From positions 14,050,001 through 14,114,000 of the forward strand of contig OX387608.1 in NCBI GenBank assembly GCA_947568835.1: DNA of 64,000 bases, in the 5' to 3' direction. The notes beneath the pieces were generated by a model, which searched no databases, had not been told where the DNA came from, and saw nothing but the letters and a program-made list of their open reading frames with translations. The stretch is from Protonemura montana (Eukaryota > Arthropoda > Insecta > Plecoptera > Nemouridae). Positions within the stretch are counted from its first letter, which is position 1; each line of letters begins with the position of its first letter. The position numbers and the translations under genes are program-made. Positions 3,301 through 58,282 of this stretch are shown here, piece after piece.

Positions 3301-6300
3301 GGTGGCGGCCAAGAAGAGCACCAAGGAGTGGGTGTTCACGCTTGTCACCGACCGGCCTCTGCGGCAGGTGGCGCTACTGCAGGACGCCACGCGGAACCAC
3401 TTCTCGCTACGGTACTTAACCACCTCGTTTTGCAGGCTCGAAATTTAAGACGATTTGCTAGTTTATTGTTATTCGTAATCTTTAAATACATTTTCAAATT
3501 TACGATTACATTTTTCAAACATGAAATGAACACACAGATATATGTAGCATATGGGTCATTCCATGTGTAATCACTCACTTTTAATTAAATTTCACTTTGA
3601 CCGACCCAGATTTTGATGAAAATTGGTATACTTGTTAAGTTTGTTGACTTAGGGGCTATTTTTTTTTTTTTTTTTTTTTGGTCCAACCGTTCGGATATTA
3701 CAAGGGGGGGAAGTTGGGGTCATTTTGCCCCCCGGGCGTGTAGTGACCACCCTTTCTACGCAATATCTAGGGTTCTATGGGAGCTACAGAGCTGGGAAAA
3801 AAATCATCTGAAAGGTAATTTCATACCCTACCTGAATATGGAAACAAAAATGACGATATGTTAATACGAATTTAATTGTGATTTTACACATCTGCATTTT
3901 CCAAAATGACCATATCGCTGATGAGTCATTTTTGATTTGCCTGATTTTTTTTCTATATATACAGAACATACATATGATCATGTGTTCCAAAAATCAAGAT
4001 GGGTGTTTTACCACTTTCCAAGAAAAAAAATTTTTTCTATAAAAAAGTGCCTTTTTGCCAGTAGAACAGCATTTTGATCACAATTATTGTGATCAGAGCA
4101 CTGGCATATATTTTATATTAAAGTTGATTTTTGTTTGCACAGTTGCATGTTCTTGAAATGTTATTCTCTACAATACAAATCGATTGTTTGCCATATTCCT
4201 GTAAATCATGGATCAAGTTGAAACAGTTCATAGAAGTCAAAAGTTTGTTCATTTCTTGTCTGGACTTGCATCTACAAGAATCTTAAAATGGTATTCCCTA
4301 GAATACAACTATAGATTGTTTGTCATGCTCCTGAATCATGGATCAAGTTGTAACAGGTTACAAGTAAAAAGTTTGGTAATTTCTTGTCTGGACTAAAGCA
4401 ATCAGTCTCTGGCCTCATGTTGATGAGGATAGAAGCTAATTTGCTCTCAAGCACCTTTTATTTAGAGATTCATAATGTGCTCAATTGGACTGTTCTTTGA
4501 AGAAGAATGTGGACCCATCGAAGATCTAGCGATTAAAAGCATTGAAAGTTTCAATAGTGACCAGCAGTTATCATTAGCTCTGCGTACTAAGTGTGATAAT
4601 GTGAAGACCGTGTGTCATTTACATGAAAAGAAATTCCTTCGTCTGTATAGCTGTCACCACAAGTTATGCTGCGATCCGTTTCAGGCTCACTGTGGAATAG
4701 TGAAAGTTAATGGGTTAAGAGAAATTAATGCAGCATCCAGGACGAAATACTTGGAGATTGCCGACCTCATCCCTGGAAAGAAATTATGCTCAACTTGCCG
4801 TAAGCTGCTCTCGCTCAGGCTGAAGGAACTAACAACCGTTTCTGTTCTAACGCCAACTAAATCCACTGAACTTGACCTACCTTTCGTGGACATACCCTGT
4901 GAAGCAGATGCCGTGAATCAGTCTTTAGCTGCATTTGGTGTGTCACCTATTAATACCACCAAACTAAAGGGTAAATCTATGTTTTATTCGAAAAGAAAGT
5001 TCAGCGAAATAACACAAGGTGTAAAGAAGAGATTGGAACTAGTATCTCCCAGTAATGAAGAAATCAGCAAAGAAGATTTGACATCTTCAGAGGAGTGCAA
5101 GGACAGCATCCGTGATGGGTCAGAGATAATAGCACAACTGAAAGAAAAGTTTAAGACGAGTACCAGAAGCGAGAAAATAACAATTTTATCTGTGCTTCCA
5201 AAAAGTTGGAGCATTAAGAGAATAATGCAAGAGTTCAATGCATCTAACCATTTGGTACGTAAAACCAAACAACTAGTAAAGGCCCAAGGGATACTGCCAT
5301 CTGCAAATCAAAAAGCAGGAAAAACTCTTTCCCCTGATTGCATTCAACTGATTGAAGAGTTTTATGAAAATGATGATGTAAGCCGTGTCATGCCGGGTAA
5401 AAAAGATTTTGTCTCGGTTAAAGTGGGTGACAATCGAGTTCACCGCCAGAAGAGACTAGTGTTAAGCAACTTAAGTGAAGTGTATCGCAGCTTCAAAGAT
5501 AAATATCCTGACATCAAGGTTGGATTCTCGAAGTTTGCAGAGCTCAGACCCAAACATTGTGTTCTGGCAGGAGCAGCTGGGACACATTCTGTCTGTGTCT
5601 GTACGATACACCAAAACGTTAAGTTGATGGCTTTGGGAGCAAAGCTGCCTTTGCTTTCAGACGGTACCATCAAATCATACCAACACTGCCTTGCCAGCCT
5701 CATGTGCAACCCCCCGCTTCTCAACTGCTTTGTAGGAAAGTGTGGCAATTGTCCGGGAACCGATGAACTTCGTGAATGGCTAGAAATCTCATTCAGTGAA
5801 AATTTCATAGACTCTGTGACTTATAAACAGTGGCTGTCAACAGACAGATGTACCCTAGAGACAATTACGAAACCTACAGATGAGTTTGTTGACTGTTTTA
5901 TTGAAAAATGCATTTTATTAAGAAATCATGATTTTATTGCACGGCAGCAAGCGGCATTCATGCAGGAGAAGAAAGCCAACCTTAAACCAGGGGAAGTTTT
6001 AGTAGTGGGCGACTTCGCTGAGAATTATTCTTTTGTGCTCCAGGATGCTGCACAAGGTTACCATTGGAATAACAGCCAATGCACCCTTCACCCATTTGTG
6101 TGTTACTTTAAGCCTGAAGATCGAGACATACAACATTTAAGTTACGTTGTCATTTCTGACTCGCTAACTCATGACACCGTTACTGTGCACACTTTCCAAA
6201 AGCACCTGATAAGACACCTGAAACAAAACATTTCGGATGTATCCCATTTAATTTACTTTTCTGATGGAGCGGCAGCCCAATATAAGAATAAGAAGAATTT

Positions 6301-9300
6301 TTCCAACTTGTGCCATCATGAAGTTGACTTCGAACTAACTGCTGAGTGGCATTTTTTTGCCACATCCCACGGTAAAGGACCATGCGATGGAGTTGGTGGG
6401 ACTGTAAAACGAAATGCAGCACGGGCAAGTTTACAGAAACCATATGCCGACCAAATAATGACGCCGATAGACTTTTACCGGTGGGCAACAGAAAATGTGT
6501 GGACTGTAAATTTTGTGTTTGTAGCCAATGAAGAGATTACAGCAAATGGCATCAAACTTAAAGAACGATTCAAAGAATTAAAAACTATCGTAGGCACAAG
6601 AAGCTTTCATGCGTTCTACCCAAAATCGCTAACTTCCTTACATGTGAAACACTTTTCTCTTTCTGAAGAAATCAACATTGTGAAGATTGTTGAGAAAAAT
6701 GAAGAAGGAGAAGAAGAAGAAGAAGAAGAAGAGGAGGAAGCAACAGCAGCAGAAATACCCGAGTTTGAGTTCAAAGACGTGGGCAGTTTCATCACTGTAG
6801 CATACAACGAAGACTGGTGGCTAGCGTGTGTTCTTGAAAAATCATCACAGTCTCTTGAACTTCAAGTCAACTTTCTACACCCTCATGGACCAGCTCCATC
6901 ATATTTTTATCCCAGTGTACAAGACAAACTAATTGTAGCTTTTGCTGATGTTTTAACACTGGCCGACCCCAACACGGCAACTGGTCGAACATACTTTTTG
7001 TCGGCTACAGACACCAACAGGGCAACAGCAGGGCTTATAAAATATGTACCTCAATAAGGTAAACTACATCTCTCTTAAGATATGCAAATTTGTACTTCAT
7101 AGTAGCTATGATTGTAAGTAATGATCATTTTCTTGAATGTTGTCTTAAATTCAGTTCATATTAATTTATATTATGAATGAATTTGCAGAAAACATTTTTT
7201 TTTCTTGGAAAGTAGTAGAACACCCATCTTGATTTTTGGAACACATGATCATATGTATGTTCTGTACATATAGAAAAAAAATCAGGCAAATCAAAAATGA
7301 CTCATCAGCGATATGGTCATTTTGGAAAATGCAGATGTGTAAAATCACAATTAAATTCGTATTAACATATCGTCATTTTTGTTTCCATATTCAGGTAGGG
7401 TATGAAATTACCTTTCAGATGATTTTTTTCCCAGCTCTGTAGCTCCCATAGAACCCTAGATATTGCGTAGAAAGGGTGGTCACTACACGCGCGGGGGGCA
7501 AAATGACCCCAACTTCCCCCCCTTGTAATATCCGAACGGTTGGACCAAAAAAAAAAAAATTAAAAAATAGCCCCTAAGTCAACAAACTTAACAAGTATAC
7601 CAATTTTCATCAAAATCTGGGTCGGTCAAAGTTTGAGGTGAGTGATTACACATGGAATGACCCATATATGTGACAGTGAGAGTTGCTTATACACGTATTC
7701 CTGGGAAAAGAAAGCTCTATTAGAGTTTTCTTTATTTATAAGATCGGCATATTAGTTCGATAGCAACAAATTACAACAAGTAATATTTAAAATTAAATCT
7801 TTGAAAACAATCATACTACGAGGTATGAGCTAAGCGATTTAAACGATGTGATTAATAATCTTTGAATAAATTAAGTTGCTAGAAAAACGTTTTAACCATT
7901 GGGACCGAACAGAAATGCATCTGATGAACTGACTTTTACTAAAGAAATCAGAATTATAGTCTGGCTGTTGTAGATTAATAGAAATTTGTTTATTTAGTGC
8001 ATGCTCTAGTACGGTAAATTAATTACATTACGTTACATATTACGTTTTACATTTTACAATATATTTTAAATGTATTCTCACTAATGACATCGAGAGAAGT
8101 CGTTAAAATCAAAACAGATTAGCGTCTTCTTTATTACGTTATGGTCTAGAAAAGATTACCTTTAAATTTCTGGAAATATGTTTCTGTAGTAATGAGTAAT
8201 GACATTTGAGCCACAATATCCTTTATTGCATAATTACTCATATTACCTTTTCCTGAAATCACATCGATGTTATGAGTTTGATTCTTGGTGTTGATTTACA
8301 TGATAACGAGAACAAAGTGACCGTTCTAGTAATATTTGCCTGGTCTTACCATTTCTCCCCTCATAGTTGAAGTGACAGTTGACGTGAATGCAACAGCAAC
8401 TTCCAATGCATCATTATTTTAATGTGTTTAGTTGTTGGAAGTTAGTTGCGTTGGTTCTAATGGAAAAAAAGGTGTGTAGTTCTCATCCTTGAAAAATTAG
8501 TGTTACATATGTTGTTAATTAATGGTAACAGTGACAAAAAGCTGGTTTGTGATAGTAATAACTAATAATAAATTTTTTTCACGATATGCCATTTAACATG
8601 CAAATTGTCATAACCTACATAGTATATGTACATATGATACAAATATTAGAAGTTGTAAATTGTAATGGGGATTTTAAACAGCTTTAGTAACTTTCGTAAG
8701 ATTCTTTTCTGTTCTTCATTTCTTAAACCAGCCTTTCAGCTGTCCCTTCACTGCATTGATCATTTGAATTTTGCGAAAAGTCCGTGTTGTCATTTAGGCA
8801 AGTATTTTAGAGGCAGGCTATATTTGTAACACCATCTGACCAGTTCCTATCTATTAAAGATAATAGCATTTTTAGGTGAGAGAAATACCTTCAAGCTGGG
8901 ATTTCTGACTCCCATTTGTTTAGCCAATTTTAGCTCAGAAAATACTATCCGTCTAACTATTTTGTGTGCCTATAACAAACGACCCATTTTCAACTATCCA
9001 GCTTTGGGAAGAAATTTTGAAGACAACAATTATATGTATAATCGTTTGAAGCACCTTGCACCTTCCGTACCATCGCATTTTTTATGTTTTTTGATGCTGA
9101 CATCACAACACATTCTCCGCTACCGCACCCAAGCCAAGCTAATGCTTATGTGTTGATGCTGTCATCAGCACTCAACTGGGAAAGATGCAAGGTGCTCCAA
9201 ACTTGTTTGCCTCTCGAAGGGGACAGCTTAGTTACGCCCGACTTTCTGGGTTCCCGCAGGCTCGTGAGCAGCGTAGATGTTTCCCGCAACGAACGTGCTG

Positions 9301-27142: not shown

Positions 27143-30100
27143 CTACGAAAGAATAAAAAACACTGTATTTTTATTTGTGAAATTTAGTCCAACTTTTAAA
27201 GAATAGATTTCAGAACAGAAAAGTGGGTTAAGCGGTTCAAATTTTTTTTTATCTTGTACGTGCACAGTTTAAACTATTGCAAAATCTTCTTGAAAAAACA
27301 ATATAATATGAATAAAATAAAACTATACTTAATTGAACCCAATTGATAGGGTTGCTTAATAAAACCCCTCCCAAGCATTATTGCAACAAAAAAAAAATTA
27401 GGAGAATTTCTTTAACACATAAAACTCAAACAAAGACCACATTGTTGCTTAGTAAATGCAAACACAAGAACCCACGCTCCCAAATTAAAACTGAACCCGT
27501 TAACAATACAACGTCAGAGCAGGCTAAAATATACTCACGGGATTCGTCGGGTCTGTCAAACGAAATAATCTCATACCATTTCAACATCTTCTCAGCCAAT
27601 TTGCCGAGATAATGAGCTTTCTCTACGGCTGTACACGTCGAGTATGTGGTCATGATTCTTTTCAGGTCAAATTTCTCGATCTCACTCACAGTTGATCTGT
27701 TCGTCGAGTCCATCTGTGATTGTAGTGGCGTCCACTCAAGACTATCAGAGCTTTGCGCACGGTGTAAGAAAGTTTGCGTTGAAATATTTGTGTCGAGTAA
27801 GAGGTCTGTTTGGCAGGAACGGTTTCTTTTAATGATCGAGATGTTAGGCAGTGAGATACACCTTTCGACTGATTCCGTTTGTGAAGAGCGATTGTGCCTT
27901 TCCATTCGCTCCGTTTGGACAGAAAAGGTTGGTGATTTTGGTTTGATTGTCTGAATGGCAACACTTTTCTGCGCCATCTCTGTTTGCAAGGCCGAGTCTG
28001 ATTTGACCACTAAATCTGTTTGTGTCGAAGAACTTGGAAACTTCAACACTTCAGACTGCCTCGACACACATATACCAAGTTCACATTGTAAACTTGGTTC
28101 CTCGTTTACCCCAGACGGCAACGAAAGGTACGGTACGGTCTGTTCTGTTTGAATCGATACGTCATTGGCAATAAAATCAGTCTGCGATGCTCTAGTTAAT
28201 CGAACCGCTTTCTCGGTTTGCATTGAAAAAGTCGGTAAAAGCGGTTTGATTGTTTGAATCGAAGCGTTTCTCCTCTCGAACTCGGTTTGAATGGCAGAGT
28301 CTGATTTAGCGACTCGCGCGGTTTGCATTGAAAACGTCGGTCGTTTTTGCGGCTTTGTTTGCGTGGAAACGGTGCTGCCAACAAAATCTGTTTGAAAGCC
28401 AGCTTCGGAGCGTGCGGTCTTCTCCGTTTGCATAGAAAACGTCGGCAGGATGCGCTGCTCGGTTTGACAGGAATTGCTTCGGGCATCGAATACGGTTTGC
28501 GAGCAACTGTCGCAGTTGACAGTACTGGTAGTTTGCGTCGACTTTGCGGGCAATTCCGGGGATTGCGTTTGAACCGAAATGGCTCGAGCGTTAAATTCTG
28601 TTTGCACAGAAATGTTGCATTGGTCTGTGTTCTCGGTTTGTGAAGATAGCTCGGTATGTGAAGGCCTTTCAGTTTGAGCTGAGATATCGTTGCCAAGAAA
28701 TTCTGTTTGAAAACCAGTGTCGCAAATTGTAATCAAATCGGTTTGCGTTGCTAAATTTGGCAACTCTGGTCGTGCAGTTTGGACGAAGGCATCGTTGCCA
28801 AGGAATTCTGTTTGAAAACCAGTCTCGCAAATTGCAATCAAATCGGTTTGCGTTGCTAAGTTTGGCAACTCTGGTCGTGCAGTTTGGACAGAGGCATCGT
28901 TGCCAAGGAATTCTGTTTGAAAACCAGTGTCGCAAATTGCAATCAAATCGGTTTGCGTTGCTAAATTTGGCAACTCTGGTCGTGCAGTTTGGACAGAGGC
29001 ATTGTTGCCAAGGAATTCTGTTTGAAAACCAGTGTCGCAAATTGCAATCAAATCGGTTTGCGTCGCTAAATTTGGCAACTTTGGTCTTTCCGTCTGCATT
29101 TCAGTGCTTTGTAATCCAACCAGCAACGTTTGCAACGCTGCGTCGCGTCTCAAAACTTCTTCGGTCTGCGTTGAAAACTCCTCGTTTGCTACATTACCTG
29201 ATACATCTGTTTGTAAAGCCACATCTCTACTATCTGTACCGTCAGTTTGAGTAGCCAAGTCTGGCAGCGATGGTCTTCTAGTCTGCACAAAGACATCGTT
29301 GCCGACAAACTTCGTCTGATTCGATTCATCACATTGCGATTTTGTTTCAGTCTGCGTTGCGTTATCGAGAAGCCTCAATCCGGCGTCGTCGCCAGGGAAC
29401 TCGATTTGCGAAGCAGCATCGCATTGTCCGATCACGTCCGCTTGAGTCGCAAACTCTTGCGTCCCGACCTTCTCGCAGATTTCACTGGCAACGTCGGTTT
29501 GCACAGAGATGTCACACTTTACCGGGTGCTCCGTTTGCACCCAATTCGTTTGCAAAACCAGGACCCGGCTGTCGGTTTGCATGGAAACGCTCTTGCCGAG
29601 CAAATGCGTTTGTAATGCAATGTCACATCGATCGACGCGTTCGGTTTGCGTCGGCACTGTTGCAAAATTCACATCTAAATTTACCGGTTGTAAATAATCA
29701 ACTTCACCGACTTTTTGTTCTTCACTTTCAGGCACTGCCTTGGTTTTAAACGCGCTTGCGCTCACTTCTAGCGGCTCCGTTTGCATCGACGCGGTTTGAT
29801 ACACAAAAACCCGATGCTCTGTCTGCATGTCCACACTTTTCTGTTCCCGTTCGGTCTGCAAAGAAACGTCCGAGTGGCACGGAAATCTGGACGCCGCCAA
29901 CGTTTCCGTCTGCACCGAGATGTTGATCCCAAGGAGCTCGGTCTGCAGCGAGCTGTCTCGTTGAACTGGTCGCTCGACTTGGAGCTTCTGCAGCGTGATG
30001 GGCATTGCGATCCATTGAGTCTGCACGGCAAGGCTGCACACCACTACCGACTCTGTTTGCATCGAAGTGGCAGCTTGCGGCGCCGCTGCGTTGGTCTGCG

Positions 30101-34018: not shown

Positions 34019-34376
34019 CCCAATGCACTTCATCTGGAAAATAATTCTGTTGAAAGGATGGTGATAAAATGAGCCGAAGTATAGGTCCTTTTTTATTTTC
34101 TCACTAACTTACTTATAGAATATATATACGATATCTACCAACAGACTGCTCTGGGGTTCACGGCGCGTCTTAACAGGATTGCAAGTTCGGTGAAACTAAA
34201 TAGATAAGAGTAAATGGGAGCACTGTCGTCGTTCAACGGGGTTTGACTGGTGGCATTCATCTTGCATTCGCGTTAGCTTGTTGCAAACGATGATAGCCCA
34301 TATGTGTGAGTTGTCGAACGCTTTAGGTCCATTTTAGGTCCAAATAGGTCCATTTTCCTCCAATATGTGAGATCGT

Positions 34377-34465
34377 CTGCGTAGCACATTGGTATTGCTG
34401 CCGCTTCGTGATGTTCAGAACGTGCTCCTCCTGGATCGAACCCAGTCGACGGAGGAAGATTTTGA
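34377..34465 (+). ncRNA. tRNA-like module 3
   Basis: A box GTAGCACATTGGTATTGC (34381-34398), B box GGATCGAACCC (34433-34443), T4 downstream. Duplicated at 36105-36195. Confidence 0.5.
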
Positions 34466-34539
34466 CTTTTGGAATGCAACTCACATCCGTGGAAGCTGCA
34501 GCAAGGAGACTTAAATATTAAAAAAATGCAATATAAACA

Positions 34540-34655
34540 TGTGTTCGCGTGGTCGTGCGGTTAAAGGCACCGGTTATCTTATTATGGTATTGGTGATGTC
34601 CCAGGTTCGAATCACGTTCGTACCACTGCGCAGTTTCACTCATTCTTTTTTTTGT
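34540..34655 (+). ncRNA. tRNA-like module 4 (Ser/Leu-like head)
   Basis: A box TGGTCGTGCGGTTAAAGGC (34550-34568) resembles type II tRNAs; B box GGTTCGAATC at 34604; T8 terminator at 34646-34653. Duplicated at 36275-36390. No complete acceptor stem was found, so not a functional tRNA. Confidence 0.55.
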
Positions 34656-34924
34656 TTTGGGCGTATGGTTTAGACAGTAGCAAAATTGCCGGGCGCTCCT
34701 GGCGCTTCGCGCCAGTCGCACCCGCCAATTTTGCGGGACGTTCCCACGACCCCAGACCCCACCTAACCCCGTGTGCGGCTCCTAAGTCTAGCATCAAGTA
34801 TATAGGAATAGTTGTGAGTGTTAAACTGCCACCTGTTGGCAGAATATTGAACTACACTCTGGACTTATAACATTTTTGATATTTGGGCCTGTGAATTATC
34901 TAGTTCGATGGTAAGAAACCAAAA

Positions 34925-35790: not shown

Positions 35791-36104
35791 GTCAGCGATT
35801 TGCGAATGGGGGGAGCCCGTATTTTTGAGTTGTTGAACGCTTCTGCACTGCTAGGTGTGGCGACCTAGTACCTCTGCACCGCGTGGTGTGGTGGCCGGGT
35901 CTAGTTCTTGCTTGCGAGAAAGATTAATAATAGTCCGGGGTATTTTAATAATATAAAAAATATCCCGGACTGCTAAGTACGAAGGGGTTTTAAACAGAAC
36001 TAAGTAGAGAGTGCAGTCGATGTCATGTTCGTAGTAACTCCGTCAGCCGGGTGTTCAAACATGCAATTCAAATAGGTCCATTTTCCTTCTACATGTAAGA
36101 TCGT

Positions 36105-36195
36105 CTGCGTAGCACATTGGTATTGCTGCTACTTCGTGATGTTCAGAACGTGCTCCTCCTGGATCGAACCCAGTCGACGGAGGAAGATTTTGACT
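36105..36195 (+). ncRNA. tRNA-like module 3, second copy
   Basis: Same A and B boxes as 34377-34465; B box GGATCGAACCC at 36161-36171. Part of the direct duplication. Confidence 0.5.
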
Positions 36196-36274
36196 TTTGG
36201 AATACAACTCACATCCGTGGAAACTGCAGCAAGGAGACTTAAATATTACAAAAATGCAATATAAACATGTGTTC

Positions 36275-36390
36275 GCGTGGTCGTGCGGTTAAAGGCACCG
36301 GTTAGCTTATTATGGTAATGGTGATGTCCCAGGTTCGAATCACGTTCGTACCACTGCGCAGTTTCACTCATTCTTTTTTTTGTTTTGGGC
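36275..36390 (+). ncRNA. tRNA-like module 4, second copy
   Basis: Nearly identical to 34540-34655, including the T8 run. Confidence 0.55.
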
Positions 36391-36654
36391 GTATGGTTTA
36401 GACAGTAGCAAAATTGCCGGGCGCTCCTGGCGCTTCGCGCCAGTCGCACCCGCCAATTTTGCGGGACGTTCCCACGACCCCAGACCCCACCTAACCCCGT
36501 GTGCGGCTCCTAAGTCTAGCATCAAGTATATAGGAATAGTTGTGAGTGTTAAACTGCCACCTGTTGGCAGAATACTGAACTACACTCTGGACTTATAAAA
36601 TTTTTGATATTTGGGCCTGTGAATTATCTAGTTCGATGGTAAGAAACCAAAAAG

Positions 36655-40762: not shown

Positions 40763-41335
40763 TTAATCGCTGTTCTGGACGACGGTAGTCTTCTCTGAAA
40801 CATACAACCCATCGAGAAACTTCCGGATATCCTTGTTTTTCACGCTAGTGGATTGTTGGATTAAAGCAGCCGAACACGAAACAGCCTCTATGCTGTTTCC
40901 CTCCAGGATGAGCTCGTCCTTCTGTTTCGGAGAGTTGGCTACTGTGACCCCCGGCGACATTTTCACGCGGCGAATGTATTTTTCACCAAGGAAGTTCCTG
41001 ATCTCGATGACAGTGTTGCTTTCCGATGTGACACAGTTGATAGGGAAATGAGCATAGACTGCACGCATCTTGTACAAAAAACCCTTCGTCACTCCCTTGA
41101 TCATGTTTTCAATGTGGGAGCAAACAGTTCGGACAGCAGCCAATTCCTTCTTCGTTCCAAACCATTTTTCAACTCTAAGCAAGTTCTTCCCCACCATGTG
41201 AATGTCAATCGCAAGATGTTTGAAAGATCTCATCAAAGATCCGCGTGGGCCTTTGACTTTGACAATTCGGGCCTTGACGGAAACCGTCAAGCCTTCGGGG
41301 ATTTTCACCGTTTGATTAGTCACGATTTGCTTCAT
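40763..41335 (-). CDS. RpL9: Ribosomal protein uL6 (RpL9), 190 aa
   Basis: The complete ATG-to-TAA frame begins [18 protein letters not shown] with [45 protein letters not shown] and [10 protein letters not shown]. This is eukaryotic L9/uL6 at full length (family about 190 residues). It sits at the base of the large-subunit GTPase-associated region. The CDS is uninterrupted, but the base before the ATG follows a pyrimidine-rich tract and CTATTTAG (minus strand), so an intron in the 5' UTR is likely. AATAAA (plus-strand TTTATT) at 40676-40681. It lies head-to-head with GRWD1, 1.8 kb apart. A retrocopy is possible but less likely given the intact frame and the splice acceptor. Confidence 0.95.
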
Positions 41336-41349
41336 TCTAAATAGTTACA

Positions 41350-48098: not shown

Positions 48099-48140
48099 CT
48101 ACTGCGGAAGGCCCGCTTGGTTGTGCTGCATCGGAGGGCC
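48099..48140 (-). CDS. da: daughterless last exon
   Basis: Acceptor CTTACCTCAG; encodes [13 protein letters not shown] and TAG. Drosophila Da also ends in LPQ. Confidence 0.82.
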   Translation of the reverse strand, partial: GPPMQHNQAGLPQ

Positions 48141-51100
48141 CTGAGGTAAGAAAACTCGACGTAAGCGCGAGGCAAATCGCAGGAAACACTGAAATCATCT
48201 TTGCTTTCAGATGAAAATACTTAAGAAGTTTAGATGTCTGTAATTTTTTAATCATGTCTAGCAGTAGGGGTGACTACCATCTCCACTCATGGTATATTGC
48301 ATCAGTAAAGCTACCTTCTACCTTCCTTTCCCATTTAATTATATCCATCCTTTTGCCTTTGTACACACTAAAAAGTAGCTTTTGTTGAATTTACTGCTGA
48401 ATCTGCTAGAGCACTAATTTTAACAATTCCAAGATTGCATTTTCAGCACCAACCCACAAACAGTGCACAAGTTTTTGCAAAACTCACCGGCATGATGGGG
48501 AAAGACTGGCCCATGTGCGCCCCGGGGTGCCCTAGGTGGTGCGCCATCTTAGGTCCATCTTCCGCCTTCTCCTCTTCTCTCCGCTTGAGACACGCTGCCT
48601 TGGGGTTCAGGTTGCGCTCTGCAGAACAAAAGGCGAGACGTCAGACACTGTTTACGATATCGGAGGAGCGATCCACTAAACACGCCCACGAAGATCGGTT
48701 GTGACTTGCAAAATGAGTATAGAAGGGTTATGAGGTCCATCGACACCATTTCGTAAGCACTCTTTGGAAGTTTAAAATTGAAAGGATTTGTTGAATTAAA
48801 CATAGTTTCAACAAAGACAAGAACTTGGTGTTTTCAAGATAATAATATACGGGAGCACAAAATACCACAATTAGTTTCAAAAGATCTTGCCAGTAACACA
48901 CCATTTACTTTCTATTTCAGGTAAATTAAATCTTTGCTCATTTTCTCATAAAAGCTACTGGAAACAGATGCATACAATGATGCAATAGATGGCTTTAATA
49001 TGGTATATTCTCTCAAGAGCTAGGCAATATAATGCATCATATTTCTGAGTTGCGGCCAGAGTTACTGAGCGCTGCTTCTCCGTTCTTGCCAGAATTGAGT
49101 TACTTTCAAATGCATTCAAGGTTTATCCCTCGCACAAATCTAAGTGCACCAGCCACAAATTAAAACGTCGACCACGAGGAAGGCCGCCCGCTTCCGCCGC
49201 CCGATATTGACCTCTGACTTGTTGCTCGAGGTTCATGATGACCTCGACAGCCATGTTCAGGATCCCGAGCTTGGTCTGCGGCTTGTCGGTCTTTAGATGC
49301 GTCATGCACATCCGGCCGAGCTCCTTCAGCGCCTCGTTGATGTCCCGTATCCGTATCCTGCAACAGCCCCGCGGAAGACGGGCTCAAAAACGTGCGGTGC
49401 CTACCTCGGACTTGCTGCTCCAGCGATGTGATTATGTCTACTGCCTGGTGGAGGACGTTTAATTTCGTTTCGAGCTTTTCCGTTTTTAGGTGCGTCATGC
49501 ACATTCGCCCGAGTTCCAAGAAAGCCTCATTTATGTCCTTCACGCGTATCCTAGAGGACAAACAGAGAAAACGGCACGGCGTTAGCAAAACTCGTTTTTT
49601 TTTTTCCGCTTCGTTTTCTAAGCCAAGTAGTTCCATTATATCGACGCTGTTTTCAGCTTTCAGAGCCCCAAATCCTGTTATTTTATTTCGTTTCTTTTCA
49701 AGATCAAGACATCAGCATCTCTCTAGTTATCTACTGCGCGTCATTACGGAAATCCCCATGCGATTAATGTCTCTGCGCTAATAATGGAAATAGTTGCGTT
49801 CTAGAGTTTTGTCCAACGCTTCGATGCCGATTCCTCGTCCGTTCGTTTGCGGGCCGGAAGGGCTAGCGATGCGATCAACGGATCCCGAGAGATCTGTCGA
49901 TCGCATCGCTTCAAATCTCGGTTCTAAGAGTAACTTACAAAATATTTTTCATAAAGGTCATCTTTTTTTACAATTACCAAGCATATTTCCTGCTGAGTTG
50001 CGTTGCTCGATTGGATATAAAAGAAAAAACTTTGGTAATTGTACAAAAATCAGCCTGCATGCTTCGAATGTTGCCGTGACACATAGACATTAAGTGGTAG
50101 GCATGCAAGAAAACGAGAAGTAGAAAGTGGAGACAGTGAGAGGAGAACCCAGAGAAGGGATGCAGGTTAGTGAAAGACTCTTTCGTCGCCGATCCGCTTT
50201 CAACCAGCCGAAGATGCAACCGTGTGATAAATCGGCCGAAACGTCCATCGAAGCCTTCGACATCTCGTGGATCCACTTGTGCCACTTTGATGTTCAATGT
50301 TCGAATAGTGAAATCGGTTGCTCTTTGGCTAGTCCAAGCTCCGGCGCGTTGCTAAAATCGTCGTCGCTGTCACATTGCCGTTGCGTGTTTGCCTCACCTC
50401 TCGCGGGCGTTGTTTGCCTGTCTCCGTTCTTTCTCGCGTTCCGCCTTCCGCCGGGGGTCTTCGTCCTCGTCGTCGGCACTCGAGCTTCGAACAAGCGCAG
50501 CCGTAAGTCAACCAGACGGGCAAGGACCCGGCCACTACCTAGGCTAGCCAGTGCGGCGGCTTCAAATGACTTTCAACGACAGTGAATGATTGGAACCTTG
50601 TCGAAACTGCACAAAGCTAGTAGCATTGCTTCTGTCTGGGCATTTTGTAACCAGACTGAACATAGCAGCAGCAAGATTTGGGTTAATTTGATTAATTTTG
50701 AAAGAAAAAGTTGAAAAATATTTTAACTCTTCTGAAAATCCTATAGTCTTCCGTCCAATTGAAAATACGAACGAAAAATAAATTTTTCGATTATGTAATT
50801 GAAGACGATATTCAGAACGTCTGGAAATTCAGACGTTTTTCATGTTTTTAACAAAATCCAAGGACTGTTCTTGCTAGTAGAGTCCAGCTGCTTCAAACGC
50901 GACAAGTCAATGCTATTGGCTTCGGCCAAAGGGTGCCTGATCTAGCAGTGACTTCCTGAACCAAACGTTGCTGAACCAAACGTTGCTGAACCAAATGTTG
51001 CTGAACCAAACGTTGCTTGCGTATCGTGTTCTGTTCGGTCTGGTGACGAGATGAATCCCTGGCGGTGAGATCGCAGGCAAACACGCAGCCACAATGTCCC

Positions 51101-54100
51101 CGACAACGACGACAAACTCTCTTACATTCCATGTGAAACCTGCACGTGCTAGCAGTCGGAGAATGTGCACCCGCAACCGAAACATAGCTTAGTGCCAACA
51201 GGAAGGCTCGGCCGAGAAGGTTAACGCTACTTGACGGTGGAAAAGGGCGAAATGATAAAGGAGAGGTGTGCAACAGAGTTAGGAAACAAAACAAATCACA
51301 CAGGCAGTGTTTCACAGGCTGAATGTAAATTAGCTTGTCACACAGGTTATTGTAAGAGATGGGGGGGGGGGGGACAACTATTTTTCCTTTCTAGAAACCG
51401 CACTTAGCTGTCAAAACTGGAATCATCTAATCGAACGGTCTGTCCCCTACTCTGAATTGAAAAGAAGTATCGATAACAAATAAACCATTGTGATTTTTAG
51501 ACTCATGTCCACTCTTTCTAGCTGTAGCAACCTAAAAAAAGCTATTCAAAAACCCAACTTTTAAATAGTATTTTCTCTAGCAAAGAAACTGTTAAAAGTC
51601 CAGTTCTTTTCCTGTGGGCAATAATATCCAGTATATATCAGTTAAAATCTACACTACCAGTGATAATTATTAGTAGTAATGTTTTATTAAATAAATGTTC
51701 AGTACCAAATTCTAAATTTCCCCAATTTAAAAAAACTCAACAATTTCAAATCTGATAACCCAATAACCTCTGATAACCCTCTTTTTCTAGTTGTTTTCGA
51801 CTGAGTCGACCCGCCAGCCCGGGACCCCAAGGACGTTCGCGTCACAAAACTCACCTCTCGCGGACGTTGTTGGCCTGCCTTCGCTCCTTTTCACGCACCA
51901 CCTTCGTGCCGGGGTCTTCCGACTCCTCGTCTGCGCTCGAGCTACATGGACACCACCAACCGTCAGAACAAACGCCCGAACTCTCACGCTCTACCCGGGC
52001 TTCCCCAGCCAACTGCCATCAGCACCGGACATTTTAAAACTGTTCAAATTGCACAAATTTTGTGTGGAGACTAGTTTTATGGCAAGCTTTCTGATCCTTC
52101 AGTGGTTATTGATAAAGAGATGGGGCATAGTCACTCAACAAAGGAATTTTTTAAGCTATTTGGCACTATCAGATTCTCGGTGAAGTGACAATGGTCATGA
52201 AACACAATGATTAATGGGAATGATGATGGCTATCTTGTTTGTTTCAAAATGAGTCAAGTCTTGTCAGAGTGTAGAATCTCACATAAGGTTCGGTAGCGTG
52301 TTCAGTCCCCAACATTACCGCAGTTTGGTTCAACAAGGTATCGAGAAACACCGCAAACTGTTACGATTTCGTTCGAAGCTTAAGATCAAGTTATCAACCA
52401 GCTCTGAATAGAATCGCTTACTTGAGATTATTTATCGTTTCACAGATGAAAATCTATGTGTAGCCATATTAAAGCATTCTGTCAACAATGGCTCAGAATT
52501 CAGAACAAATTTACTGTAAAAAGCTCCAAAAGAAGTTGGAGAGTGGTACGCCATATCAGAAGTGGCATCCAACAAACCTGATTGTTAATCATTGGTATTG
52601 AAAGGTTGTATACAAAAAAATGAATTCAGTCTGTCTGCAAAACCACGTCTTTGTGAGAGCTGCAACAGCGATATCCGCTTAGACGTTAAAACATCGGCTT
52701 GCGAGAGTAGATTAGTTGTCGCGGGACTCACTATCGTCGCGAGCGCTTGCTGCCCTTGGCGCCCGACGTGGAATTTGCAGCGGCCGTCGTGCCCGCCGTG
52801 CTCCCTTGAGAGTTGCCCAGCTCCGAGCTGCTCGGCTTGGTCTCGCTTCCTCCCGAAGGCTCCTTCCGTTTCTCTGCACACGGGAGAGAGAACGTAACGT
52901 TAGCAAGCAAGTGGAGTGAAATCCTGGTCAAGACCATGAACGGGAATTGGTACTGAGTGGTACTGTATATCTAAAAAGCTGGGACTAGCCTTGAATTATT
53001 CTGATCATTACTTGCTAGCTCCTACCTACAGTCTAGTCTTTGTCACGGTATTTTCAGGATAAGTACTACCAGTAAAAATTGCCAACGCTCAGCTTTCTGA
53101 CCACATTCACCCACAAGATCCAACAGGCAAGAAGCTGAGTTATGGTCTTTTTTTAGGTTCTGATCTAAAAATAATGTTTACAAATGTAAATTTGATAAAA
53201 ACACATTTTTGACAGGAACTATTTGCAAATATTTTACAAAGGGCCTTTTATAAGATAGTAGGCCAGAACAATTTTGCAGGCTGTAACTAGGCATACAAAA
53301 CCGAGACCACCGTCTCCTGTGCTAGAAACTCAGTTGTCAAGCTATCTACACATTATCCGCATCAACAAATTGCGGCGCAACTTACTGCCCGCACTCGCGG
53401 CGGCCGGCAACCGCTCGATTTTGATCGGGCCGTCGGTGTCGGCAAGTGACGGCGGCTGGTAGCCGGCGCCGGGCGAAGCCAGCTGGTCCAGGTGGGTGTT
53501 GTAGCCGAGCAGGCCGTTGTGTGGGGGCGGCAGGCCGTGAAGCCCGCCCCCGAGCACCTGTGGCTCGGCGTGGTTGCGCAGCACGTTGATTGCGTCGTCG
53601 AGCCGCTCTTCCATTCGCGTGCCCTACGGGATAAGCGCGGTCAGCGGCGGGAAAAACGGCACGAGAGTTTCAGGACTCGGTGTGGTGGGAAAGATTTTCA
53701 AGAGGTTTTTCTGCTGTTTAATGTCAGGCAAAAAAATGTCAGTCTTTCTGGCATGAAGACGGATACACCTAATTGCATACATTACCTAGCAGTTAAATTA
53801 AAATGGTGAATAAACAACTAAATCTCTGATTGATAAAGCAGAGTAAATTATACATAAATACAAGGAATCGACATGCAGGGCGAGGGTCAGAATGCACAGA
53901 GACGAGATTTGAAGGGGGAGCCGGTGGTGGTAACATCATTTGAATTCTTTCCCACAACAGATTTTGAGTGTCTAATGAAACCAATTTCAATCCTTACTCC
54001 CTAAATATATAAATCAAAGTTCTTATTGACATCAACCATCTTGTTCATCTGAACCATGGGCATAACACTGCTGTTTATTTAAGCTTTTATCTAACTAACC

Positions 54101-57100
54101 AAAAAACATATCAAAGAGACTATTTTGAAAATGAAATTTAAAACGAAACTGTGACATTGCCACTTCTGTTTACTCTTAAAATAAGATCATCTATCAGGCA
54201 ACAGCTGAAATGTCGTAGTATCTCTCTTTATCTCTCACACTCTCAAAATTCTTAACATAAGCAATAATTTCTAGACCTGGAAATAGCTCAAAACCTTTCC
54301 TAATGCCGGCAAAACCAAAGTCACCACCGCCTCTCCCCCCAAACACTCTCCGCTACAATATCAGGTGCGGTGAGCGCATGCATCGTGCGAGGTACGTGAG
54401 GGTGCGCTTACGACGGCTTGCTCGCGCAGGTATCCGATGGCGTCGTCGAGTCGCTGTTGCTCTGGCGGAGCCGTCTGCTCGGCCACGCGGCAAACAGACA
54501 CGCGTTACAAAAACCATGCCGGCGGCAGGCAAATCGCATGCAGCAAGACAAGTGGGTGCGACAAAGCAAGGAATTGGGATCGACAATTGGTTCGCTCACT
54601 AAGTCGGAAACGCCCGAGATCGGAAACGTTGGATTGCAAATCGTTGCAAGGCGACGTAACCGATTCGCGAGCGTTCTTGGCATGAAGCAAAACAAATGGC
54701 GATTCCAACTTCTTCGTCAGCGTTGTCGACCCCGAGAAATGATAATGGTAGTAAACGTAGGTGCAAAAAAGGGGACGAGTTGCTTAGAAAATCAAACGTA
54801 AATCAAATAAAGTGGAATCTATGTTCTTACAAAATTAAACAAAGCATTTTATTGTAAAAAAAAAGGTGCAAAATCAACTGGGTGTCGATAATATGTGGAT
54901 CGTTTAAGCAATAATACAGTTTTCTTGCCAGTTGCCATTTTTTCCGGCTTGGACTACTTCTGCCGCTCTTGAGCCATCCCTGAAGTTTGACCAAACCCTG
55001 ATCATGAAAATTGTACGCTAGTAGATTTTGCAGGTGGAAGCTACGTAGTGGTTCTCTATACAGGTTTACTTTACTGGTCCAGCCCTTAAATTAAACTTAA
55101 TAGAAACCAAGAATAGATTTTCACAAAAGCAACGCTAAGCGATGGTTGACCACACTAAGCGATAAAAGCTCTGTTAGCTGTTCACAACGGAACAAGCCCC
55201 CCTCCTGGCAAGAAAACAAATTGACCTCGACGCTTGCTTGCTCTTGCTGACTCACCATGTGCAGACCCCGGTCGACGGGACCGAAGTGTGGCGACGCGGG
55301 CGTGGGGGCGGGGCCTGCGGGAGGCCACGCCCCTGCCGGACCTGCTCCCGTCAGCGGCGGTGGAGAGCTGACCGGGGTCGACGGGTTCGAACTGTAGCTG
55401 CTCACGCTCTGGTCGGTCGGGTAGATCTGCTGGCAGACAGGGGACCGTGAGAATAGGGAGCGTCTCCACCAGGGTTGAGCGGCGATACTAAATTTCAGAT
55501 GTGCATGGTGCTGTTGTCAGTGGCAACATGTTGGGAGCTTACTGGCACAATGCATAATTGCACTTAAACTGTTATTCGGATGAGCACCCGTTTAAAAGAG
55601 ACATAAATGAAACTTGGTGCATTTATAAGTGTAGGCTTCTTGTATCTTGATATCTACCTGGCACAATCCCCAGGTATCAGGGACAAGTGTGCCTACGGTA
55701 GTTCAAGATATAAGATAGAATCTATCTTAATAGGGATTCAAATATGGAACTCAAAAACTTAACTTCTAGGAAAAATGTTCCTGGCTACATTCTGACAGAT
55801 GCCATAAAAAGAATAGAAGCCACCAAGTATAGTAGCGCAGTAAACATCTGGCTTGCATTCGGGAGATTCCAGGTTTTATCCCAAAAAAATATAAGGCCAC
55901 TAACAGTCATCTCCAAAGAGATTAAGTTTCTCAATAATAGCCGCGAAGGCTTTTAGCTTTTCAGCCTTTAAAGAGTCGATCCGACGCCAGCAGCAACTTA
56001 CCGACGCCAGCGCCTTGCCGAGCGTGTCGCCTGGCGTTTGCGCGAGCGCTGGACTGTGGTAGAGCGCGGGACTGGCCGGTGCGCCGCCCGGCCCTGGACC
56101 TCGGAAGCTGGACATGGGCGGCAGGCTTGGTGGCATTGCACCTTCGCCTGCCGGCGACGGGTAGCCCATGGGGTCGTGGCCGCCGCCCCCAAGGTGCATG
56201 GCGGGCGCTGGGGCTGGGGGCGGAGGACCGAACGCCTGGGAGTTAGGGTAGCCGGCGTAGGCGCTCGGCTGGAGCTGGCCGCCGGACCAGGGATCTTGGC
56301 CGTTGCCATCTGTGAAGAAAGAAAAACGATTGATTAGCTGGAGGTCGTTACGTCGTTCTTTAGATTCAATTTATTCTCATGTTGGCAATCCTGTTTAAGC
56401 TTTGAAAGTTCAATGTCTGTTTATCTTTTGGAGTTAATTAAAAATTATAATAATCATTAATATTCGATGACATTGGTTTGACTATGTCATCATCATGCAA
56501 GGTGGCCAGATAGAAAATAGGCTGTCCTTGGTATTTCATGACTGATGGCAGGCGGCATAATCCGTCATGTTGTTTGAAAACAAAACAACAAAATGCGAAA
56601 AATGTTAAGTGCAAAAGATAGTCACTTTAACCTTATGCTTACTTGCAGTGTGAAAATCATGTAATTTTACATCTAATTTACAAGAACTAGATTAAATGGC
56701 GAACGGTGGATCTAGCTAGTGCATTTGGCCTAGAGCATTGCGAGACGAAATCGAAGATTTATTGGAGATAGAAATTCCAGTCTGGTCGAGCAACTCGGAG
56801 AGACGGTAAACATATTGGAAATTTGTTTTTTAAGAAGAGTGCAGTAACCTACAAGTGAAATTGGCACAAAGCATAAAACCAGATATTTGGGGAACATAGT
56901 TTCGTATGAAATACCAGAGGTCGTCATCTTTGTATGCAAGTTCATAAATTCTGGCTGCACCAAAGAATTTGGCACCAAACCCTTGCAGTAGTAAGCAAAG
57001 ATTCTTTTCAAGTCTCTTTAAGCGACTGAGTAAAATAAACAAATTTGGTGTGGCATGGTACATACAGAGAAGTGAAAGAAATGAAATATTGGTATATACA

Positions 57101-58282
57101 TAAAGACATGATTTGAAAATTTAAGTACACTCGTATCCAAATGAGACAACTATTCCCCGTATAATTGGCACATTATTCAACTGGCACAACTGTATGATTG
57201 ATCTTTCATGGACAAGGACGAATTGATTTTACATTTTAAAAGGAAATCACGAATCTGACGCTCAACTGGATCTCAAGAGGAGCAAGATTTTATCACCGGA
57301 CCAACTGCTCAGCATCTGGCTAAACATTAGTGCATGCTGCAAGCCCGAACTGCATCTCGTGGATGCACCGAACGCAACCCCTTCGCCGGGAATGCACTTC
57401 ACTGACACAGTGCAGCGAGATAAAACTTGATGTGGAACCAATAACGAGTAACGGTCGTGTTGTTTCCACCGCCGCCGAGAAAAACAAGCATTGATTTCCA
57501 ACGACGACATGGCTCTGTTTTCTTGCGATCTCCTGACGACTTCCCAGTCTCTTTTTGTGTTGCTTTCAGATCAGAGTGATCTTAGCGTTCTGATTTCAGA
57601 GTCTAAGACCTATACTCCGTTCAGCGAGAGAACGCACTTTGTTTGCAGATACCCCACTAATCGTCTTGTGGTGACTTGCTAGCTAATCGTTATTTTTAAA
57701 ACCACTACGAATCTCCTCTGATCCACACCAATTTCCTTTTGTTCTAGAGCTTTTGACGTGCCAAGCTATTTAGTTTTTGAAGATATTATCATAATTTTTC
57801 TACCAATTGTTGGAAATTATTCTGAAGGTACAAAAATTTTGAAATAACGCAAATCTTGTAAATTTTCACATTTCGATCTTAATAGAAGGTTCTGAAATTT
57901 TAAGCTTACAAAAAAAAAACATTTCTGAGAAATGTATCACTCAAAATGATCTAAAATGATAAGATTTGCACAAGCAAACATCAAAGTACATGGAAAATGC
58001 TCACATTTCTTATAATTAATTACCATACTCATGTGAGTTTGTGTGAAAATATCACTAAATAACGACAGCACGAAAAGCTCAAATAATAACATAATCAACC
58101 TCTTAGTTATTTTGCACTATGACCAAGGGAAATCTTCGAGTGGTCTGCCACGAAAATGTTGGTGGTACACTTAGTAGCTAGCACGGGCACTTACCGATTG
58201 TGTAATAGGAGTCCCCATAGAGGTTGGCAGCTTTCGGGGACGTGTATCTAGGAGAATCCTGGCCAAACTCATCGGACCCGTA
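48099..58282 (-). CDS. da: Daughterless / class I E-protein bHLH factor; 5' exons missing; two alternative exon pairs in the bHLH domain
   Basis: Exons, 5' to 3': 58282-58195, 56309-56002, 55426-55256, 54474-54412, 53623-53386, 52873-52732, then 51941-51855 or 50484-50398, then 49550-49405 or 49357-49212, then 48618-48488 and 48140-48099. One choice of each pair gives 471 codons plus TAG, all in phase. Landmarks: LGKALAS then [15 protein letters not shown] (E-protein AD2 region), [30 protein letters not shown] basic region, [17 protein letters not shown] helix 1, [18 protein letters not shown] after the HLH. E-proteins are obligate dimer partners of proneural, Twist- and MyoD-type factors at E-boxes in the nucleus. 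Drosophila da has a single bHLH version; vertebrate TCF3 has alternative HLH exons (E12/E47). Here the basic exon is also duplicated. The N-terminal MHLYEVFQNCFNK-type exon was not found and is expected beyond 64 kb. Confidence 0.93.
48488..48618 (-). CDS. da: daughterless exon: post-[20 protein letters not shown]
   Basis: Acceptor TGTTCTGCAG, donor GTGAGT. Encodes [20 protein letters not shown], then [20 protein letters not shown]. The first two bases complete Glu with the G left by either HLH exon. Confidence 0.95.
49212..49357 (-). CDS. da: daughterless HLH exon, version B (canonical)
   Basis: Acceptor GGCTGTTGCAG; 146 nt, same phase as A. Encodes [39 protein letters not shown] and IMNLEQQVR, essentially Drosophila Da. 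The donor is GTCAAT, far from consensus. Only 47 nt separate it from version A. Confidence 0.9.
49405..49550 (-). CDS. da: daughterless HLH exon, version A (divergent)
   Basis: Acceptor TTGTCCTCTAG, donor GTAGGC; 146 nt. Encodes [40 protein letters not shown] and TSLEQQVR. It keeps the helix 1 and 2 hydrophobic pattern but changes the loop (KLET for KPQT) and helix 2. Confidence 0.93.
50398..50484 (-). CDS. da: daughterless basic-region exon, version 2 (canonical)
   Basis: Acceptor GTTCGAAG, donor GTGAGG; 87 nt with the same phases as version 1. Encodes [15 protein letters not shown] and [14 protein letters not shown], the standard Da basic region. It lies 1370 bp downstream of version 1. 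Both exons start CTCGAGYGC, showing common origin. Confidence 0.93.
50950..51016 (+). repeat. 15-bp minisatellite, four copies
   Basis: CTGAACCAAACGTTG repeated four times with one or two changes, in the daughterless intron between the two basic-region exons. Confidence 0.85.
51361..51373 (+). repeat. G13 homopolymer
   Basis: Thirteen G in the daughterless intron between basic exon versions 1 and 2. Confidence 0.85.
51855..51941 (-). CDS. da: daughterless basic-region exon, version 1 (divergent)
   Basis: Acceptor CCATGTAG, donor GTGAGT; 87 nt, phases 2 in and 2 left over. Encodes [15 protein letters not shown] and [14 protein letters not shown]. Relative to version 2 it has NNVRER for NNARER. 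Val at that site is the residue used by Twist-type class II factors. Confidence 0.92.
52732..52873 (-). CDS. da: daughterless exon: Ser/Thr-rich linker ending SKRSRR
   Basis: Acceptor GTGTGCAG, donor GTGAGT. Encodes [20 protein letters not shown] to [10 protein letters not shown]. It leaves TA, which joins C from either basic exon to give Tyr; Da likewise has RPRRY. Confidence 0.92.
53386..53623 (-). CDS. da: daughterless exon: LDDAI activation helix, SUMO-type site
   Basis: Acceptor TATCCCGTAG, donor GTAAGT. Encodes [20 protein letters not shown], then a Gly/Pro-rich stretch and [16 protein letters not shown] fits the psi-K-x-E SUMO consensus (inference). Confidence 0.94.
54412..54474 (-). 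CDS. da: daughterless exon: first LDDAI-like helix
   Basis: Acceptor GCCGAGCAG, donor GTAAGC; 21 codons, phase 0 both ends. Encodes [16 protein letters not shown], corresponding to the QLxxHLQDAMSFLKDV helix that precedes LDDAI in vertebrate E-proteins. It is therefore a consecutive exon, not an alternative to the next one. Confidence 0.75.
55256..55426 (-). CDS. da: daughterless exon: [13 protein letters not shown]
   Basis: Acceptor TGCCAGCAG, donor GTGAGT; 57 codons. Encodes [20 protein letters not shown] then SPPPLTG, almost as in Drosophila Da and TCF4. Confidence 0.94.
56002..56309 (-). CDS. da: daughterless exon: Pro/Gly-rich, ends GKALAS
   Basis: Acceptor TTCTTCACAG, donor GTAAGT. 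Encodes [29 protein letters not shown] and [10 protein letters not shown], the conserved E-protein LPPMSSF and LGKALAS motifs. Confidence 0.92.
58195..58282 (-). CDS. da: daughterless exon: YGSDEF/TSPK segment
   Basis: Acceptor GTTGCAG, donor GTAAGT. Encodes [20 protein letters not shown] and YGDSYYTI, comparable to the SDDF..SP.Y.SPK segment of TCF4. This is the most 5' exon I can support. Confidence 0.82.

Follow-up and report, generated by a model that had tools for sequence, protein, structure and literature searches.

How many versions of its DNA-binding and dimerization domain can a single insect daughterless (da) gene encode? Its product, Da, serves as shared partner to basic helix-loop-helix (bHLH) factors that act in proneural, mesodermal and sex-determining roles, and in Drosophila the da gene is not known to have more than one version. 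The question arises from a 64,000-nucleotide stretch of the plecopteran Protonemura montana (contig OX387608.1, positions 14,050,001 to 14,114,000; "the window" below), whose minus strand carries a da gene between 58.3 and 48.1 kb. An earlier note had described two basic exons and two HLH exons in this gene and proposed up to four bHLH domains from them. The coordinates and phases of the two 87-nt basic exons and the two 146-nt HLH exons hold on the minus strand, as do the shared first bases of the basic pair, and the NNVRER motif and KLET loop on which the note remarked are real. We hold with good, if not complete, confidence that the gene is insect da, a class I bHLH or E-protein gene, and that three duplicated exon sets in it feed alternative splicing. 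The third set involves exon L1, which the note had missed. Twelve exons were recognised, five of which (L1, b1, b2, A and B) are candidates for alternative use; they are listed here in the order of transcription, together with the intron between A and B.

58195..58282, minus: e1, the most 5' da exon located
56002..56309, minus: e2, da exon matched to relatives exon by exon
55256..55426, minus: e3, da exon matched to relatives exon by exon
54412..54474, minus: L1, an in-frame cassette of 63 nt in phase 0-0, a duplicate of the LDDAI helix found at the beginning of L2
53386..53623, minus: L2, the LDDAI exon
52732..52873, minus: linker exon k, translation ending KGSKRSRRY, last bases TA
51855..51941, minus: b1, basic exon 1 with NNVRER, 87 nt
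50398..50484, minus: b2, basic exon 2 with NNARER, 87 nt
49405..49550, minus: HLH A exon, 146 nt, with the general E-protein core V3, F10, H34, Q35 and T41
49358..49404, minus: A-B intron, 47 nt
49212..49357, minus: HLH B exon, 146 nt, with the insect-type core I3, L10, N34, M35 and M41
48488..48618, minus: common exon C, the conserved E-protein stretch directly after the bHLH
48099..48140, minus: last coding exon, containing the native stop

The reading frame itself narrows the ways in which these exons can be joined. There are 32 combinations that include L2, since L1 can be used or skipped and the basic and HLH pairs have four states each. On translation 12 of them reached the native stop, and these were precisely the ones that contain b1, b2 or both together with a single HLH exon. 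With L2 present, A and B together shift the frame, as does the lack of both, and joining k past both basic exons creates the stop TA/G. Double inclusion of b1 and b2 stays in frame, and L1 is a cassette that can be added to L2, doubling the set of open forms to 12. When L1 is used without L2, 12 of 16 combinations are broken and the remaining four lack any HLH; L1 can hardly substitute for L2. All four pairings of one basic with one HLH exon do read through to the native stop, but four is an undercount, as the b1+b2 tandem and L1 bring the open forms to twelve. Because exactly one HLH exon keeps the frame and the intron between the two is 47 nt long, A and B should act as a mutually exclusive pair; such an intron is probably too short for easy joining of A to B. 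The basic exons are better regarded as an alternative pair that is not strictly exclusive, since the tandem is in frame here and occurs in 79 of the 138 proteins that have a B-type HLH within the comparison set described below.

If the exons are used as the frame predicts, and we infer that HLH A is spliced in Protonemura montana, then splicing would set which basic exon (b1, b2 or both) and which HLH exon Da carries, with the short A-B intron enforcing the choice of A or B. The resulting Da products would have their activation domains and tail in common; the differences would lie next to the DNA contacts (NNVRER or NNARER) and in the dimer core, which would be of the general E-protein type in A and of the insect type in B. 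The RER residues contact the E-box, and b1 has V instead of A just ahead of them; V at the same place occurs in Twist-type factors. The isoforms would probably differ in E-box and partner preference, so that splicing of da could adjust which E-boxes and which partners this obligate partner selects.

That the gene is da follows from several lines of comparison. A canonical bHLH query searched against the assembly of the same species (258 Mb, 34 contigs; 15 candidates scored) returned four matches, all of them these exons, with E-values of 4.3e-25 (B), 6.4e-16 (A), 5.9e-8 (b2) and 3.1e-6 (b1), far above chance level. The Pfam HLH model scores b1-A at 38.8 bits and b2-B at 45.7 bits, against a curated cut-off of 20.7, and exon C carries the conserved motif that in E-proteins lies immediately downstream of the bHLH. 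Outside the bHLH, the top summed scores among the proteins compared belong to Anabrus (560 bits) and Bacillus rossius (535 bits), and there are exon-by-exon matches to Da proteins as well; these top scores would suit a polyneopteran-like insect. Coding exons 5' of e1 were not found in the window or in the five stretches searched within 49 kb upstream of it.

The borders of the duplicated exons are orderly. Both b1 and b2 start with CTCGAG, are read in the second frame, and have AG upstream and GTGAG downstream, while A and B have equal phase, uninterrupted frames, AG upstream and GT downstream. The 47-nt A-B intron is one of eleven between the listed exons, the other ten measuring 347-1885 nt. 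Counted per 17-nt acceptor tract, pyrimidines number 8-10 at L1, b1, b2 and B, 11-15 at e1, e2, e3, L2, k and C, and 15 at A, which makes the acceptor of HLH A the richest among the duplicated exons, and the donors farthest from GTRAGT are those of A (GTAGGC) and B (GTCAAT). These differences describe the sites and do not amount to proof of regulation. Within the b1-b2 intron there is also a short tandem repeat around TTTGGTTCAGCAACG (50956-51020, minus).

How far these exons extend beyond Protonemura was examined in a set of 237 proteins, comprising 236 database entries and one fragment from the window. The entries are clusters at 90% identity, with several per species (the best 120 of 6308, the best 120 of 431 and 30 short proteins), and the insect comparison rests on database gene models. 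The 138 with a B-type HLH include, beside the 79 with the tandem NNVRES...NNARER, 44 that have b1 without the tandem and 15 that have neither. The earlier note's description of b1 as the divergent copy does not survive these counts; b1 is a common exon. The tandem is found in Hymenoptera, aphids, other Hemiptera, thrips, beetles, moths, butterflies, sand flies and stick insects. Among the 44, Popillia has b1 and b2 each linked to its own HLH. The 15 without b1 consist of four crustacean models discussed below, three that look crustacean (P0168 from Meganyctiphanes; P0228 and P0230, unnamed), and eight with NNARER only, some of them partial (Danaus, Apis dorsata, Harpegnathos, Microctonus, one unnamed, Gryllus longicercus, Timema podura and Arctia). 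Insect da models, annotated as "protein daughterless isoform X" or "transcription factor 12 isoform X", thus resemble the window gene in having b1-like and b2-like exons, be it b1 alone, NNARER alone or the tandem. Exon by exon, window b1 is 92.6% identical to the b1-type exon of Anabrus and 89.3% to that of Bacillus, with similar exons in Venturia and Homalodisca, and window b2 is 83.3% identical to the b2-type exon of Venturia and 76.7% to that of Bacillus. Among the 138, 48 combine L1-like with L2-like stretches.

HLH A presents a different picture. The note took it for a divergent copy of a canonical Da HLH, an assessment that alignment of 44 of the 237 proteins over 48 positions fails to support. 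Identity to the HLH of the tick Ixodes is 39 of 48 residues for A and likewise for B, and the same holds against Centruroides; A and B agree with each other at 33. Six A rows differ from five B rows, the latter defined by L10, at position 3 (V versus I), 10 (F versus L), 34 (H versus N) and 41 (T, V or S versus M), and V3 and F10 recur in the rows for sponge, Trichinella, starfish and vertebrate E2A. At these residues, A keeps the core of general E proteins (chelicerate, sponge, starfish), and B has a derived core. A is not simply "the ancestral" exon, a description that the comparison with the tick fails to support: A and B disagree at 15 positions, and there the tick is matched by A at 7, by B at 7 and by neither at 1. 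A has instead kept the ancestral core, and B the ancestral loop along with other positions. A separate A-type exon exists in P0210, an 84-residue open reading frame on a 3783-base jgi contig; it agrees with window A at 39 of 48 positions, among them E27.

Crustacean models provide a close parallel to the A/B arrangement. Four of the 237 proteins, from Homarus, Darwinula, Amphibalanus and Hyalella, all crustaceans, contain A and B in one gene model, with the A-type HLH before the B-type HLH as in the window, and isoform X4 of Oratosquilla (P0152) joins an A-type HLH directly to exon-C-type sequence. The Homarus model departs from QVR where A ends, and the A of Hyalella, which was kept out of the tree below, is strongly diverged, with V3 and F10 present but LQ in place of the LH of the other A rows. 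Unlike the Protonemura gene, the crustacean two-HLH models and Oratosquilla X4 are without the NNVRER basic exon. We tentatively equate window A with the A of the crustaceans. An E-protein model of the annelid Lamellibrachia satsuma (P0052) contains two unlike HLH copies consecutively, which hints at another HLH duplication.

A tree of 47 rows and 48 columns, whose bootstrap had not settled, bears on the age of the split. Nine of 56 rows were left out, five because they are identical to kept rows (Popillia_2, Scophthalmus_TCF4_2, Gryllus_1, Bacillus_1, Timema_1), along with Hyalella_1 and Sarcoptes_1, each one residue longer, and two divergent Dissostichus rows. B rows form one group with support of 100/100, window A groups with P0210 at 97/91, and E12, E47, TCF4 and TCF12 form one group at 95/94. 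An insect-only origin of A, with window A placed inside insect B, was rejected by the approximately unbiased (AU) test (p-AU 0.0058), and a grouping of window A with only window B and Anabrus was rejected as well (p-AU 0.022). Because the AU tests reject such an origin, A is probably not derived from insect B; it is probably an old line and not a young copy of it.

Several observations weigh against our reading of the gene. The best tree scatters the six A rows: the Homarus row joins that of Oratosquilla, Darwinula stands alone, and the A of Amphibalanus, on a long branch, lies near nematode and annelid rows. The AU test leaves standing a single clade of the six A rows (0.364), a single clade of A and B (0.314) and a clade of B with window A (0.222), and more than one age of the A/B split fits these 48 columns; the groups put to the test were, moreover, picked after the first tree had been inspected. 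The four crustacean models with A and B may owe their double HLH to faulty gene prediction that ran the two exons together. The named insect da models compared have HLH B only, as against A and B in the Protonemura gene; none of the named insect proteins among the matches listed contains HLH A, though 90% clusters may hide isoforms, and a search restricted to short proteins likewise gave no named insect A. Window A has the private changes L11, L26 and E27, the last shared with P0210 and no other row of the position table. For the basic exons, Bacillus b2 is about equally close to window b1 (82.8%, 46.6 bits) and to window b2 (76.7%, 47.8 bits), so that one-to-one orthology of b2 is not firm, and NNVRER is not restricted to insects, being present in the fish E2A model P0026.

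Could the duplicated exons be something other than a splicing choice? One could suppose that A and b1 are young tandem copies of B and b2, or haplotypic copies that amount to an assembly artefact, and the copies do adjoin and have equal length, the A/B pair being homologous neighbours in the same phase. The DNA identity is 0.67 between A and B and 0.76 between b1 and b2, however, and the differences cluster at third codon positions (13/7/28 at positions 1/2/3 for A/B; 3/5/13 for b1/b2). The 300-nt flanks of b1 and b2 are dissimilar, their scores of 12 upstream and 11 downstream being no better than shuffles (means 12.1 and 10.7), and b1-like and b2-like exons co-occur in many other insects, which, with the AU result against A having arisen within insects only, makes young copies scarcely credible. 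Because of the 76% and 67% identity and the third-position clustering, haplotype duplicates are excluded; the divergence and codon-position bias of the copies rule out haplotype or assembly duplication, and the divergent copies contain no stops, which would have undone the note's proposal.

The remaining alternatives accept that the exons are real and differ on their use. HLH A could be a relic, an old exon no longer spliced here with HLH B alone in use, a reading that draws on the absence of A from the named insect proteins compared and on the unusual residues L11, L26 and E27; the uninterrupted frame and intact borders of A, its pyrimidine-rich acceptor, the skew of A/B changes to third positions and its matches to the tick HLH and to the separate exon P0210 all speak against it, and we consider it quite unlikely. 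Alternatively, the exons might be spliced and nearly neutral, giving proteins with the same partners and sites so that the choice tunes level or stability only. The A/B differences are often conservative, and b1 and b2 both retain ERRQANN and RER, as such a reading would predict, yet positions 3, 10, 34 and 41 split the A rows from the B rows, which suggests separate constraint, and we rate near-neutrality as improbable though worth keeping in mind. The choice of basic and HLH parts by splicing, with consequences for the protein, is the reading that we prefer.

Two known systems help to place such a choice. In vertebrates, TCF3 exons 18a and 18b give rise to E12 and E47 (PMC12585103). Like the window gene, TCF3 (E2A) is an E-protein gene with neighbouring homologous exons for alternative bHLH versions, and many vertebrate models carry both in series; in those models, though, each unit holds basic and HLH together, whereas in Protonemura basic and HLH lie on separate duplicated exons and are hence combinable. 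A common origin with E12/E47 is unsupported by the tree, in which window A and B fall outside the vertebrate group and the B rows stand apart, and since E12, E47, TCF4 and TCF12 group together, the TCF3 and da duplications look independent. In the butterfly Bicyclus anynana, PMC9218548 reports two mutually exclusive, previously unannotated seasonal exons of da, with a change in percent spliced in (deltaPSI) of 0.84 by RNA sequencing (RNA-seq), confirmed by quantitative PCR with amplicons of about 85 bp. This is likewise an insect with alternative da exons; the passages on da do not name them, and by size they would fit b1/b2. It was the sole directly relevant insect paper on da exon choice found among titles and the starts of abstracts, most subscription literature lying outside that coverage; TCF3 is absent from PMC9741552, and "splic" and "isoform" are absent from PMC5882748.

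Elsewhere in the window, a plus-strand open stretch of 863 residues (4466-7054) with an acidic run near its end may encode a mobile-element protein, and two near-identical stretches (34276-34867 and 36058-36595), alike in their open frames on either strand, are likely a repeated element. Units of about 35 residues recur with small changes in open frames of both strands at 28672-29251 (for example NANRFDCNLRHWFSNRIPWQ), a degenerate tandem repeat, and a 193-residue open stretch in one exon (40766-41344, minus) encodes what is presumably ribosomal protein L9.

The Protonemura gene thus appears to have a da HLH version that resembles that of the tick and is absent from the other insect proteins in the comparison, and splicing could change what Da binds. 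More broadly, and only tentatively, as something a little short of an even prospect, we suggest that the canonical insect Da HLH belongs to an ancient two-part splicing switch of pancrustaceans, of which some insects, including this one, still retain the other, general E-protein-type half, freely combined with two basic regions to give up to twelve bHLH proteins, the choice among them possibly regulated by stage, tissue or environment as in Bicyclus. If true, partner choice could be controlled on the Da side too, beyond the tissue-specific side. The locus would also serve as a test case for repeated E-protein HLH duplication, alongside vertebrate TCF3, the crustacean models and the annelid model. 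And if other insects swap the basic and HLH parts of Da by splicing, results from Drosophila would not transfer to them simply.

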